A stretch of DNA of 64,000 nt from an uncultured delta proteobacterium (GTDB lineage Bacteria > Desulfobacterota > Desulfovibrionia > Desulfovibrionales > Desulfovibrionaceae), in contig LT599018.1 of assembly GCA_900079685.1 (NCBI GenBank), positions 2,085,486 through 2,149,485 on the forward strand, in the 5' to 3' direction. Of this stretch, positions 1 to 30,876 are shown in pieces; within the stretch, counting starts at the first letter, position 1; each line of letters opens with the position of its first letter. A model generated the notes under the pieces. It ran no database searches. It was not told the DNA's origin and saw only the letters and a program-made list of their open reading frames with translations. The position numbers and the translations under genes are program-made.

Positions 1-123
1 GTCATAGATGAATCTGAAGTCGATAGCCTTGTCGATTTTACGAAGAAGATGTTCTTTAGGCACGAGTTGCTCGATATATACCAGTTCCATCATGCCTTGC
101 TGTTCGGTTTTGCGCTTTATCAT
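1..123 (-). CDS. IS1182-family transposase, N-terminal fragment cut by window edge
   Basis: The first 41 codons are the same as those of the complete transposase at 6349-7806: MIKRKTEQQ at the start, then VPKEHLLRKIDKAIDF. The ATG lies at 121-123 on the minus strand. The rest of the gene runs off the left edge, so it cannot be judged whether this copy is intact. Confidence 0.85.
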   Translation of the reverse strand, partial: MIKRKTEQQGMMELVYIEQLVPKEHLLRKIDKAIDFRFIYD

Positions 124-27529: not shown

Positions 27530-27729
27530 CAGGGCGAGCGCATCGTAGTTTCTGACTCTGCCATAGAGTATGGTTGCACAAATCTTGTGCCGCCTGGATC
27601 CCCGCCTTCGCGGGGATGACGTTCTGCTTCACCGGAAGTAGTATTTTTTTCACGTCATTCCCGCGCAGGCGGGAATCCAGTCTCTTGCAATGTCTTGCGC
27701 CAGATAAAAATTGCTATGCGCTCGCCCTG
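27530..27729. repeat. 200-bp MITE-like element with 14-bp terminal inverted repeats
   Basis: The element is bounded by CAGGGCGAGCGCAT (27530-27543) and its exact complement (27716-27729). Nested inside are two opposed copies of the widespread repeat CTGGATCCCCGCCTTCGCGG / CCGCGCAGGCGGGAATCCAG (27594-27621 and 27653-27680). Translated, that repeat gives the familiar VIPAKAGIQ peptide. It has no coding capacity of its own and no clear target duplication. It lies just upstream of the promoter for the TRAP operon leader. Confidence 0.7.
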
Positions 27730-27799
27730 GCTTCATGACAGTCACGCAATGAGACCTCGGACGGATACGGTGATGCGCCACGACCCCTTTGCTTTTTCA

Positions 27800-27828
27800 T
27801 TGACAGGCGCGCTTCCTTTGACTACATT
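27800..27828 (+). promoter_or_regulatory. Candidate sigma-70 promoter of the TRAP operon
   Basis: TTGACA at 27800-27805 is separated by 17 bases from TACATT at 27823-27828. Transcription would begin near 27835, only a few bases before the ATG of the leader peptide. The leader would then be nearly leaderless, unless a longer transcript from upstream is used. Confidence 0.5.
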
Positions 27829-27838
27829 TCGCCCTGTT

Positions 27839-27940
27839 ATGCATACTGTTGCCTGCTATCCCCTTTCCGCGTCCTTTACCGCCCGTTGCTGGTGGTGGCT
27901 TGTCGCGCATACGGAAACCGGGGCTTCTCGCGGGCGATAA
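27839..27940 (+). CDS. Trp-rich leader peptide (attenuator)
   Basis: The 33-codon frame reads MHTVACYPLSASFTARC, then WWW (residues 18-20, TGG codons at 27890-27898), then LVAHTETGASRGR. Runs of Trp codons of this kind are typical of trp leader peptides, such as the three-Trp leader of rhizobial trpE. The stop codon is 24 bases before an intrinsic terminator. No Shine-Dalgarno sequence precedes this ATG, so the exact start is uncertain. In-frame ATG codons also exist further upstream. Confidence 0.6.
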   Translation: MHTVACYPLSASFTARCWWWLVAHTETGASRGR

Positions 27941-27993
27941 CGCACGTCGTATACGCAACCACTGCCGCCGGTTTACACCGGCGGCTTTTTTTT
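27915..27993 (+). promoter_or_regulatory. trp-type transcription attenuator before the TRAP genes
   Basis: The intrinsic terminator pairs GCCGCCGG (27964-27971) with CCGGCGGC (27978-27985) and is followed by eight Ts. The competing antiterminator pairs AAACCGGGGC (27915-27924) with GCCGCCGGTTT (27964-27974), with one bulged base. A ribosome stalled at the Trp codons (27890-27898) would end just short of 27915 and leave the antiterminator free. A ribosome at the stop codon (27940) would cover it and let the terminator form. Confidence 0.7.
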
Positions 27994-28014
27994 GCGCAAC
28001 CGTCTGGAGGGACG

Positions 28015-29037
28015 ATGAACACAACACCCGGAACACGCATGCCCATCATGGCGCTTTTCTGCCTCGTTCTGCTGGCTTTTTTGCCGGAATACGCCGACGC
28101 CGCGCCCATACGGCTGCGCTACGCCAACTTCCCGGCGGCGGCCACGTTTCCCTGCGTCGCCATGGAACAGTGGGCAAAGGACATCACCGCGCGGACGAAC
28201 GGCGCGGTCGCGATCGAAACCTTCCCCGGCGGCACCCTGCTGGAAGCCAAGAACATGGTGCGGGGCGTCATGCAGGGGCAGGCCGACATCGGCTGCATCA
28301 GCATCGCCTACCACCCGGGCGCGTATCCCTTTCTCAGCGTATTCGAGCTTCCCCTGGGCTTCACGTCCGCCGAGGACGCGAGCCGGGTCATGTGGGACGT
28401 CTACAGCAAACACCAGCCCAAGGAACTCGCCAAGATCAAGGTCATCGCGCTGTATTCCAGTGCGCCGTCCCAGATCATGAGCGCGAAACCCGTCACAACG
28501 CCGGAGGACCTCAAGGGGCTGACGCTGCGCTCCTCCGGCATTCTGGCCGACGTTGCCGCCGCGTTCGGCGCGTCTCCGGTTTCCATGCCCCAGAGCGACA
28601 CGCCCGAAGCCCTGCAAAAGGGCGTGGTGCAGGGCGTGTTCTCCTCCTTCGACGTGCTGAAGGACTATAACTTCGCGGAAAGTTGCCGCTACGGCCTGAT
28701 TCTGGACGGCCCGGTCTACCCCTTCATGGTGTTCATGAACCTGAAAAAATGGGAATCCCTGCCCGAAAACGTGCAAAAGGCCATCATGGACCTGGCCCCG
28801 GAACATTCCGCGTGGACCGGCAAGTACGTGGACGCCCACGGCCTTGACGCGGTGCAATGGTCCGAGAAGACCCACAATTTCGCGCTGGCCCGCCTTGACG
28901 GCGCGCAAAAGCAGGCGCTGTTGCAAAAAGCCGGGCCGGTCATAGACGCCTGGGTCAAACGCGCGAACGACAAGGGCGTGGACGCCAAAGCCCTGCTGGA
29001 AGAAGTGACGCACGCAAAAGAGGCGTCAGGCAAGTAG
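28015..29037 (+). CDS. TRAP transporter substrate-binding protein (DctP family)
   Basis: The 340-residue periplasmic protein has a signal peptide ending near residue 29 (LPEYADA). It has a DctP fold with MVRGVMQGQADIGCISIAYHPG, LKGLTLRSSG (the conserved arginine that binds a substrate carboxylate) and VVQGVFSSFDVLKDYNF. CTGGAGGGA precedes the ATG. It is the first gene after the Trp-leader attenuator, so tryptophan, a related indole acid or an aromatic precursor is the leading guess for its ligand. Confidence 0.9.
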   Translation: MNTTPGTRMPIMALFCLVLLAFLPEYADAAPIRLRYANFPAAATFPCVAMEQWAKDITARTNGAVAIETFPGGTLLEAKNMVRGVMQGQADIGCISIAYHPGAYPFLSVFELPLGFTSAEDASRVMWDVYSKHQPKELAKIKVIALYSSAPSQIMSAKPVTTPEDLKGLTLRSSGILADVAAAFGASPVSMPQSDTPEALQKGVVQGVFSSFDVLKDYNFAESCRYGLILDGPVYPFMVFMNLKKWESLPENVQKAIMDLAPEHSAWTGKYVDAHGLDAVQWSEKTHNFALARLDGAQKQALLQKAGPVIDAWVKRANDKGVDAKALLEEVTHAKEASGK

Positions 29038-29062: not shown

Positions 29063-29578
29063 ATGAACAGCTTTCTGGACATATCGGAAAAATGGCTGCG
29101 GTACGCGTCCCTCGCGGCGGCGACCCTCGGGGGGCTGGCCATGCTGGCCATGCTCGCCGTTGTCGCGGCGAACATCGCGTTGCGGCCTTTCGGCGAGTCC
29201 GTCAGAGGAACGGTGGAAATCAGCGGGTATCTCTGCGCGCTGGCCGTGGGGCTGTGCATGCCCGCGGCCCAGGCCGTGGGCAGCCATATCGCGGCGGGTG
29301 TCTGGGTTTCCTCGCTGCCGAGGCCGGTCCGTTTATTCCAGAAGGAAGTCAGCAGCCTGATCTGCGCCGCGCTCCTCGTGCTGGTCGCCCGCGAGCTGTT
29401 CGGCATTGCCGCGTACGCGCGCGACATGGGCGAATACATCGAGGGGTTTGACATCTCCTACTATCCCATGGCCGTGGGGTTTGCCTTCGGCGTTTGCCTG
29501 CACGCGGCGATCTTTGCGCACGGGGCGTTGCGGGCCGTGTTCCCGGCCCCGAAAACCGACCGGGGAGGCGCGGCATGA
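29063..29578 (+). CDS. TRAP transporter small membrane subunit (DctQ family)
   Basis: The 171-residue protein has four hydrophobic segments, with the DctQ-type features LRPFGESVRGTVEISGYLCALAVGL in the first half and a basic amphipathic loop. Together with DctM it forms the sodium-coupled membrane unit that accepts ligand from DctP. Its stop overlaps the dctM start (ATGA), so the stoichiometry is probably set by translational coupling. Confidence 0.88.
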   Translation: MNSFLDISEKWLRYASLAAATLGGLAMLAMLAVVAANIALRPFGESVRGTVEISGYLCALAVGLCMPAAQAVGSHIAAGVWVSSLPRPVRLFQKEVSSLICAALLVLVARELFGIAAYARDMGEYIEGFDISYYPMAVGFAFGVCLHAAIFAHGALRAVFPAPKTDRGGAA

Positions 29579-30876
29579 CCCCTTCTCTCCTTGTCCTCGC
29601 GAGCATTGTTCTGCTGCTCGCCTGCATCTGCTTTTTCCGCATTCCCATCGGCATGCTGCTGACGGCTCTCGGTTTTTTCGGCTACGCGCTGCTGGACGGC
29701 ACGGATACGGCGGTTGCCATGCTGGGGAACGAATTCTGGAGCACGTTCTCCAACGCGGGCCTGACCGTAGTGCCGCTTTTCGTGTTCATGGGGCAACTCT
29801 GCTTCCATTCCGGGCTGTCCGGGCGGCTGTACCAGGCCATCGCGTCCTGGATCGGCCATCTGCGCGGCGGGGTGGCCGCCGCGACCCTTGTCGCCTGCGG
29901 CGGGTTTTCCGCCATCTGCGGTTCCAATACCGCGACGGCCGCCACCATGAGCGTGGTCTCCCTGCCGGAAATGCAAAAACGCCACTACCATCCGGCCTTC
30001 GCCGCCGGGGTTGTGGCGACCGGCACAACCCTCGGCGCGGTCATCCCGCCCAGCGTCGTGGCCATCGTTTTGGGTATCCAGACAGGGCTGTCCATCCGCA
30101 AGCTTTTCGTCGGCGGCATCCTGCCCGGTCTTGTTCTGCTCGGGCTTTTCCTGCTCACCGTGGCCTGGGTGGGGAAAAACAAGCCGCTGCTCGCGCCCGC
30201 CGGGGAAAGGATGTCCATGGCCGAGCGCATCCGCACCCTGCCGGGGCTGTTCGAAGCCCTCTTTCTCTTCGCCCTGGTGGTGGGGGGGTTGTCCGCCGGG
30301 GCCTTTACCCCGACGGAAGCCGGGGCGGCCGGGTCCGTACTGGCGCTCGTCATCGGGATCGCGCGCCGGGGGCTTTCTTGCCGCAAACTGGCGAAAGCGG
30401 TGTTCGAGACCATGAACGTCTCGGCCATGATCTTTCTGCTGCTTGCGGGCGCGGGCTGTTACGGGAAGTTTCTGGCCGTCAGCCGCACGCCCTTCATGGT
30501 GGCGGAGTGGGTGCAGTCGTTGCAGGTGGCGCCCGCCGTTGTGCTGGCGCTTATCTTTTTCGTCTACCTTGTCGGCGGCATGATTATGGATGCGTTGGCG
30601 CTGCTGCTTATCACGCTGCCCATATTTTTCCCCCTGGTTGAACGGCTCGGGTACGACCCGCTCTGGTTCAGCCTGGTGTTGCTGGTCGTGACGACGCTGG
30701 GGGCCATAACGCCGCCGGTGGGCGCTTCGGCTTATGTGGTGGCGTCCATGGGGAAAATTTCGCTGGGGAGCGTGTTCCGGGGGACCTTGTTTTTTATCCC
30801 GGCGTTTTTTGTGTGCCTTGGGGTGATGACGGCGTTTCCGGGGCTTGTGATGCTGTTGCCGGATATGGTGCAATGA
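29575..30876 (+). CDS. TRAP transporter large membrane subunit (DctM family)
   Basis: The 433-residue protein has about twelve membrane segments and DctM hallmarks: FVFMGQLCFHSGLSGRLY, ICGSNTATAATMSVVSLPEM, TGTTLGAVIPPSVVAIVLGI and GAITPPVGASAYVV near the C-terminus. It is the sodium-driven transport channel. The start at 29575 follows GGGAGGCG. The operon ends here, facing a convergent gene ten bases further. Confidence 0.93.
   Translation: MTPSLLVLASIVLLLACICFFRIPIGMLLTALGFFGYALLDGTDTAVAMLGNEFWSTFSNAGLTVVPLFVFMGQLCFHSGLSGRLYQAIASWIGHLRGGVAAATLVACGGFSAICGSNTATAATMSVVSLPEMQKRHYHPAFAAGVVATGTTLGAVIPPSVVAIVLGIQTGLSIRKLFVGGILPGLVLLGLFLLTVAWVGKNKPLLAPAGERMSMAERIRTLPGLFEALFLFALVVGGLSAGAFTPTEAGAAGSVLALVIGIARRGLSCRKLAKAVFETMNVSAMIFLLLAGAGCYGKFLAVSRTPFMVAEWVQSLQVAPAVVLALIFFVYLVGGMIMDALALLLITLPIFFPLVERLGYDPLWFSLVLLVVTTLGAITPPVGASAYVVASMGKISLGSVFRGTLFFIPAFFVCLGVMTAFPGLVMLLPDMVQ

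Follow-up and report, generated by a model that had tools for sequence, protein, structure and literature searches.

The dctPQM operon considered here, which is situated in a window of 64,000 nucleotides (the whole stretch of DNA that was analysed) from an uncultured member of the Desulfovibrionaceae, is very probably controlled by a trp-type ribosome-mediated transcription attenuator. As judged from the DNA sequence, the operon would be switched on when tryptophan is short, its transporter would import tryptophan or an indole acid, and it would form part of a regulon for tryptophan salvage. The attenuator is well supported by the comparison of orthologous leaders, and the proposed uptake is supported by the genomic context.

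The elements of the leader and the genes behind it are listed in Table 1. Translation confirms the 33-codon open reading frame (ORF) with three consecutive Trp codons to which the initial annotation had pointed; the peptide reads MHTVACYPLSASFTARCWWWLVAHTETGASRGR, and its stop codon is at 27938-27940. The intrinsic terminator proposed there is also present: a stem of nine pairs, eight of which are G-C, is followed by eight T. It is situated between the ORF and the first gene of the operon. The competing pairing, given earlier as 27915-27924 with 27964-27974, is the same as the duplex found here between about 27914-27925 and 27963-27975, which contains one bulged G and has an energy of -16.9 kcal/mol compared to -18.2 kcal/mol for the terminator hairpin. 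The minimum-energy fold of the leader holds a 1:2 hairpin (27860-27871 with 27904-27923) and the 3:4 hairpin. Because the energies and the predicted fold contain them, the 1:2, 2:3 and 3:4 pairings of the classical model are all possible. The classical spacing of arm 2 claimed for this leader holds as well, as 15 nt separate the arm from the last Trp codon, and its 3' end is 15 nt ahead of the end of the stop codon; such spacing rules are derived from the footprint of the ribosome. The short ORF, the translation of which is predicted, and its run of Trp codons recur in 16 leaders.

Table 1. Features of the leader and of the dctPQM operon, in positions of the window.
Feature	Positions	Strand	Basis or remark
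Promoter TTGACA-17-TACATT, sigma-70-type (predicted)	27800..27828	+	Consensus scan, 10/12 matches
Leader region	27839-27993	+	Between promoter and dctP (28015)
Leader peptide ORF, 33 codons and stop, start ATG 27839	27839..27940	+	Translation; ORF type recurs in relatives
Three Trp codons in a row, proposed stall site	27890..27898	+	Sequence; Trp runs in 16/16 leaders compared
Arm 1, partner 27904-27923 overlapping arm 2	27860..27871	+	Minimum-energy fold; p 0.51 against shuffles
Arm 2 (putative antiterminator)	27914..27925	+	Duplex with arm 3, -16.9 kcal/mol
Arm 3, common to antiterminator and terminator	27963..27975	+	Terminator scan and duplex energy
Intrinsic terminator (stem 27964-27985, T tract 27986-27993)	27964..27993	+	Hairpin of -18.2 kcal/mol
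Shine-Dalgarno-like site of dctP, GGAGGG	28006..28011	+	Read from sequence
dctP, solute-binding protein, Dde_0634 group	28015..29037	+	Pfam DctP; 4n6d, 4pgn, 4nap best by sequence
dctQ, small membrane subunit	29063..29578	+	Pfam DctQ 4.5e-13
dctM, large membrane subunit	29575..30876	+	Pfam DctM 8.4e-89; TIGR00786 above cut-off

At the gathering threshold, no Rfam family, including any trp leader family, matches in the window; below this threshold, three weak matches fall within 27700-28100. Upstream of the promoter, at 27594-27680 of the window, there are two oppositely oriented, GC-rich hairpin repeats (CTGGATCCCCGCCTTCGCGGGGATGACG and GTCATTCCCGCGCAGGCGGGAATCCAG), which resemble the dispersed repeats of many genomes.

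The leader is predicted to operate as follows. Transcription would begin on or beside the leader ATG, and ribosomes would therefore initiate on a leaderless message. When charged tRNA-Trp is ample, the ribosome would reach the stop codon and cover arm 2, and the 3:4 terminator would end transcription ahead of dctP. When tryptophan is short, the ribosome would stall at the three Trp codons, opening the 1:2 hairpin and freeing arm 2. The freed arm 2 would then pair with arm 3, and the transporter would be made. The transporter, in turn, would take up tryptophan itself or an indole acid from which the cell can make it. It would be joined by an orphan trpB and a gene for an aryl-CoA ligase, each behind a similar leader, in a tryptophan-salvage regulon of a genome where trpE and trpA were not found.

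The folding of this one leader is no better than chance (z -1.32; 24 of 200 shuffles fold equally well), and its own 2:3 and 1:2 pairings give p = 0.29 and p = 0.51 against shuffles, respectively. The case therefore rests on comparison. Orthologues of DctP, defined by E <= 1e-60 and counting the source genome in each set, are present in 76 of 288 genomes of the family, 90 of 297 genomes of the order (Desulfovibrionales) and 65 of 297 genomes of the phylum. Upstream regions were read for all 76 orthologues of the family, for 17 distinct orthologues from other families of the order and for 29 of the 64 other genomes of the phylum. A Trp-rich leader ORF followed by a terminator precedes 12 of the 17 distinct orthologues from the other families, eleven of these leaders having adjacent Trp codons and one having WAWRFW. 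Within the family, the leader is borne by four of the 76 (the source genome, G170, G183 and G184); there is no such leader in the other 72, one of which (L006) has just 142 bases of upstream sequence. In the rest of the phylum, none of the 29 upstream regions read has a leader ORF with a terminator, and two of them (L165 and L171) contain a Trp-Trp ORF without a terminator. The expectation, set down in the initial annotation, that related leaders would align with conserved Trp codons and compensatory changes is thus borne out in the other families of the order; in the family itself, where the comparison had been proposed, most orthologues (72 of 76) have no such leader. A hairpin kept without Trp codons, which had been named as a sign against attenuation, occurs in one relative: L134 (G301) has kept a typical terminator hairpin, and the Trp ORF is absent. 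The leader is not visible in the upstream regions read of L130, L132, L135 and L137.

In the tree of the orthologues, L130 and L135 cluster with sequences of the phylum from outside the order, and these two dctP versions may therefore be foreign. Within the family, a single supported clade unites all four leader bearers with the leaderless L052. The leader label needs four changes on the tree, of which the starred branches force three. In L139 the leader ORF extends as far as the terminator without meeting a stop codon. This sequence is from a genome (G328) that is 43% complete, and the dctP match has an internal stop; L139 is perhaps decaying or an assembly fault.

The pairings were compared in 16 leaders by matching the region past the Trp cluster with the 5' arm and loop of the terminator, using 1000 dinucleotide shuffles for each. 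The Fisher combined p is 9e-13 for the 2:3 pairing and 6e-7 for the 1:2 pairing; taking the worst value in each of the nine genera, the corresponding numbers are 1.7e-6 and 0.002. A mutually exclusive antiterminator is therefore found for the set of leaders. The strong 2:3 signal stems from the other families of the order, since the four family leaders together give a 2:3 p of just 0.08. In the 12 leaders of the other families, both sides have changed at 13 of the 21 counted 2:3 columns, a count to be read with the caveat that the pairs were picked by energy, which favors paired letters. Arm 2 starts 0-20 nt past the Trp run in all 16 leaders. In 15 of them it also ends ahead of the last base of the stop codon; in L131 arm 2 is located beyond the stop.

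The combination of a Trp-Trp ORF and a terminator is rare in the sequences scanned. The two strands of the window contain 12 terminator-like sites, a single one of which, the dctP leader, has an in-frame Trp-Trp ORF ahead of it. Under the same rule, the dctP loci of the family, which hold 68 terminator-like sites in 273,438 bases, yield the four dctP leaders and nothing else. This rule is limited in both precision and coverage: imperfect hairpins escape it, and it catches four of the 12 leaders from the other families and neither trpB leader (L123 and L124, see below). Among 30 loci of the source genome around matches to Trp-Trp codons plus a T tract, one other place (L091/L092) passes, where the 14-codon ORF is LSSLGLQKRGSLWW and no link to tryptophan is known; the combination can therefore arise by chance or for other reasons. 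The bare pattern TGGTGG-61..91-TTTTTT has 59 matches in the source genome versus 47 for the reversed control and by itself proves nothing. With an added -35 element, the pattern has 79 matches versus 27 for the control in 16 genomes; the 79 include repeats of one place, and those inspected are the dctP leaders and seven other places.

The second passing place in the source genome and the non-significant pairings of the single leader are what one would expect if a short ORF with a Trp run happened to stand ahead of an ordinary terminator and attenuation were absent. Such a coincidence is, nevertheless, highly improbable, because the same layout with pairing arms is found in 16 orthologous leaders from nine genera, because two more likely Trp-related genes of the same genome are positioned behind such leaders, and because the 29 orthologues read elsewhere in the phylum are free of it. 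Attenuation at the Trp codons is the reading adopted in what follows.

The best-scoring promoter of the leaders places the end of the -10 box 5-10 nt ahead of the ATG in 12 of the 16 (10 nt in the leader of the window), and shuffled upstream regions have this spacing in a mean of 1.6 of 16 and a maximum of 5 (60 rounds). The -10 scan used promoter weights of the commonly known kind. Exceptions are L009, with 51 nt between the promoter and the ATG, and L076, with 24 nt; a promoter with a lower score, read by eye, would fit too in L127 and L128. As an ATG 5-10 nt past the -10 box appears to be a conserved trait, the leader mRNA is probably leaderless, with transcription starting at or just before the ATG. 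The missing Shine-Dalgarno site and the promoter close to the ATG, which the initial annotation had counted as weak points, would both be explained by this arrangement and no longer look like weaknesses. There is a precedent in Sinorhizobium meliloti, where, according to excerpts of the report, the trpL transcript begins with the ATG of the leader ORF (PMC7298713). With the ORF probably at the very 5' end of the message, initiation on leaderless mRNA would become part of the sensing.

The downstream genes had been named as dctP, dctQ and dctM, and Pfam bears this out: the three subunits of a DctPQM transporter follow in a row, all above the Pfam cut-offs. The dctM start at 29575, which overlaps the dctQ stop, is a choice made here, the list of ORFs giving TTG 29494. 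The source genome (4.0 Mb) has 35 DctP-family matches; with seven of 38 candidates scored, the only orthologue at 1e-60 in this genome is the dctP itself. The best solved relatives of DctP by sequence are 4n6d, 4pgn/4pgp and 4nap (E 1.2e-106 for 4nap). The predicted model of DctP (mean pLDDT 94.6) superimposes on 4nap (Dde_0634) with a Z of 45.6 and an rmsd of 1.6 over 309 residues at 50% identity, and on 4n6d (Desal_3247) with a Z of 42.8 at 52% identity. The similarity of DctP to Dde_0634 is thus at the level of orthologues in both sequence and fold. We take 4pgn and 4pgp to be the same protein as 4nap, and the ligands of the Dde_0634 entries to be D-Trp, indole pyruvate and indole-3-acetate. 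R172 of DctP, presumably the carboxylate-binding arginine of the family, is invariant in 46 sequences. Excerpts of a review on TRAP transporters place indole acids among the newly found ligands (PMC5812351). Uptake of tryptophan, an indole acid or an aromatic precursor would fit the closest solved relatives and the tryptophan-salvage context.

The next matches of the model are entries whose titles read 'specific for aromatic acid ligands', with a Z of about 39, and proteins that bind coumarate. Beyond the Dde_0634 group, the nearest solved relatives bind, by their titles, coumarate, cinnamate and other aryl acids. The attenuator might thus be real and the substrate a general aromatic or other acid, the Trp codons being just a proxy for a shortage of aromatic amino acids. 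We consider this unlikely, as the Trp cluster is present in 16 of 16 leaders, trpB is among the genes behind similar leaders, and Dde_0634 and Desal_3247 are much closer to DctP, with 50-52% identity compared to 20-27% for the aryl-acid binders. If tryptophan or an indole acid is the substrate, the regulatory codons would hint at a physiological substrate class that is hard to tell by sequence among the 35 DctP matches.

The genes of tryptophan biosynthesis were searched for as trpE (N-terminal domain PF04715), trpA (PF00290) and trpB. The trpE domain is present in 13 of 16 genomes of a first set and 17 of 22 genomes of a second set, and trpA in 23 of 28 genomes. Both are absent from the matches in the source genome (95.4% complete), G170, G183 and G340, the last of which is a leader bearer with a 77% complete genome; hence, of the four genomes of the family with a dctP leader, three have no detectable trpE or trpA. 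There is also no trpE match in G314 and no trpA match in G346, both genomes being incomplete. The trpB of the source genome is at G000:C1:1571448-1572590, with no neighbor recognized as a trp gene, and the best trpB candidate of G183 (E 6e-4) is not convincing. The loss is not common to the whole genus, since the sister genome G117 has both trpE and trpA. Furthermore, both genes occur together with the leader in G184, the one remaining leader bearer of the family, and in most leader bearers outside the family. Leader and gene loss, therefore, do not correspond one-to-one.

The missing genes bear on the direction of the response. In a leader of the tnaC kind, the nascent peptide would sense free tryptophan and switch on catabolic uptake in times of plenty. 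The operon does encode a transporter and, as far as excerpts of the literature go, TnaC responds to tryptophan as well. Such induction is very unlikely here: a terminator and an antiterminator that starts just past the Trp run fit stalling on Trp codons, the 16 peptides, compared by eye, share little beyond the Trp cluster save between close relatives, and trpE and trpA were not found, so that import fits starvation.

A different ORF accompanies trpE itself. At 19 of 31 trpE-domain loci (L108-L120 and L141-L158, counted by eye), a conserved ORF of 50-70 residues similar to MLTEDAELFCGLMDANPFTQESVRAFRSMLNIAAGGDIELLAEKANWWWRE is positioned ahead of trpE. It has a Trp run near its end, and a terminator is found behind it in 10 of the 19. 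For two of its members, a Pfam search at E 1 found nothing, and no match to NCBIfam exceeded the cut-off. To our knowledge, leader peptides are rarely so conserved, and this ORF may have a function of its own.

Two more leaders of the dctP kind are present in the source genome. The orphan trpB (L123 10600-11000, C1) is preceded by TTGACG-17-TATATC, 6 nt and an ATG, from which MNMRDTSVTTFSWWRLW is read; the peptide contains WWRLW, and behind its ORF come a hairpin and then an imperfect terminator hairpin. A similar leader is found ahead of trpB in G117, G170, G292 and G290, where the trpB of G292 and G290 was called by eye from its N-terminus and the leader of G292 has no terminator under the rule of the script. 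The third leader, MNPRTNPTFEGLWWRLP (L217, G000:C2:404545-404721), is situated ahead of a gene for a PaaK-type aryl-CoA ligase of 434 residues (TIGR02155, 403 bits, below the cut-off of 646). In the sister genome G117, counterpart leaders precede both trpB and the ligase. Such a leader is present at two of the 19 loci of ligase orthologues, those of the source genome and of G290 (with WWW). It was not seen at the ligase loci of G170 and G183; at two loci (L237 and L238) the match starts within the coding sequence, so that these allow no call. In G001, 55 bases separate the end of the trpA match from the start of the ligase match. The source genome also encodes an indolepyruvate oxidoreductase alpha subunit (G000:C1:43794-45572; TIGR03336 above the cut-off) that has no leader of the Trp kind; seven of eight loci of this oxidoreductase are without a Trp-Trp ORF, and L256 shows two.

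The leaders and genes taken together suggest that indole and indole acids may be salvaged into tryptophan. It is conceivable, as a tentative extension, that the leaderless Trp attenuators of the Desulfovibrionales make up a dispersed regulon whose genes serve to regenerate tryptophan from indole compounds scavenged by the cell. In this scheme, indole-3-acetate or indolepyruvate would be imported by the TRAP transporter, the PaaK-type ligase would produce indoleacetyl-CoA, and an indolepyruvate oxidoreductase working in the reductive direction followed by a transaminase would yield tryptophan, with trpB acting on free indole. If true, this salvage route would be the main supply of tryptophan in lineages that have lost trpE and trpA. 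The leaders offer a testable tryptophan-salvage regulon in bacteria in which trpE and trpA are not detectable.

The mechanism itself is known; its target, the leaderless start that recurs among the leaders, and the regulon for salvage appear to be new. In literature searches on TRAP transporters with Trp attenuation, on leaders of Desulfovibrio or Deltaproteobacteria and on the binding protein, none of the matches listed described such a system by title or the start of its abstract, the main survey of proteobacterial attenuators being outside this scope; novelty is therefore likely, not proven. The attenuator of the enterobacterial trp operon, trpL, has a leader ORF with a Trp run and 1:2, 2:3 and 3:4 pairings, and precedes biosynthesis genes. 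The leader described here resembles it in the Trp-run ORF, in the three pairings and in the terminator before the first gene, and is unlike it in having a TRAP importer downstream, no Shine-Dalgarno site for the leader ORF and no Rfam match. The orthologous binding proteins Dde_0634 (4nap) and Desal_3247 (4n6d) have been solved as proteins only, and their regulation is not known to have been described. A precedent for salvage is the route from aryl acids to aromatic amino acids in Methanococcus maripaludis (PMC4162585, in excerpts). As in that route, an acyl-CoA ligase and an indolepyruvate oxidoreductase could rebuild tryptophan from indoleacetate; the excerpts name neither a Trp attenuator nor a TRAP importer (PMC4162585). 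A parallel in the start of the message is trpL/rnTrpL of S. meliloti, which, in the excerpts of its description, shares the stalling at Trp codons and an mRNA that can be leaderless (PMC7298713). The S. meliloti leader controls trpE(G), whereas the leader described here precedes an importer, with similar leaders at a lone trpB and at an aryl-CoA ligase gene.
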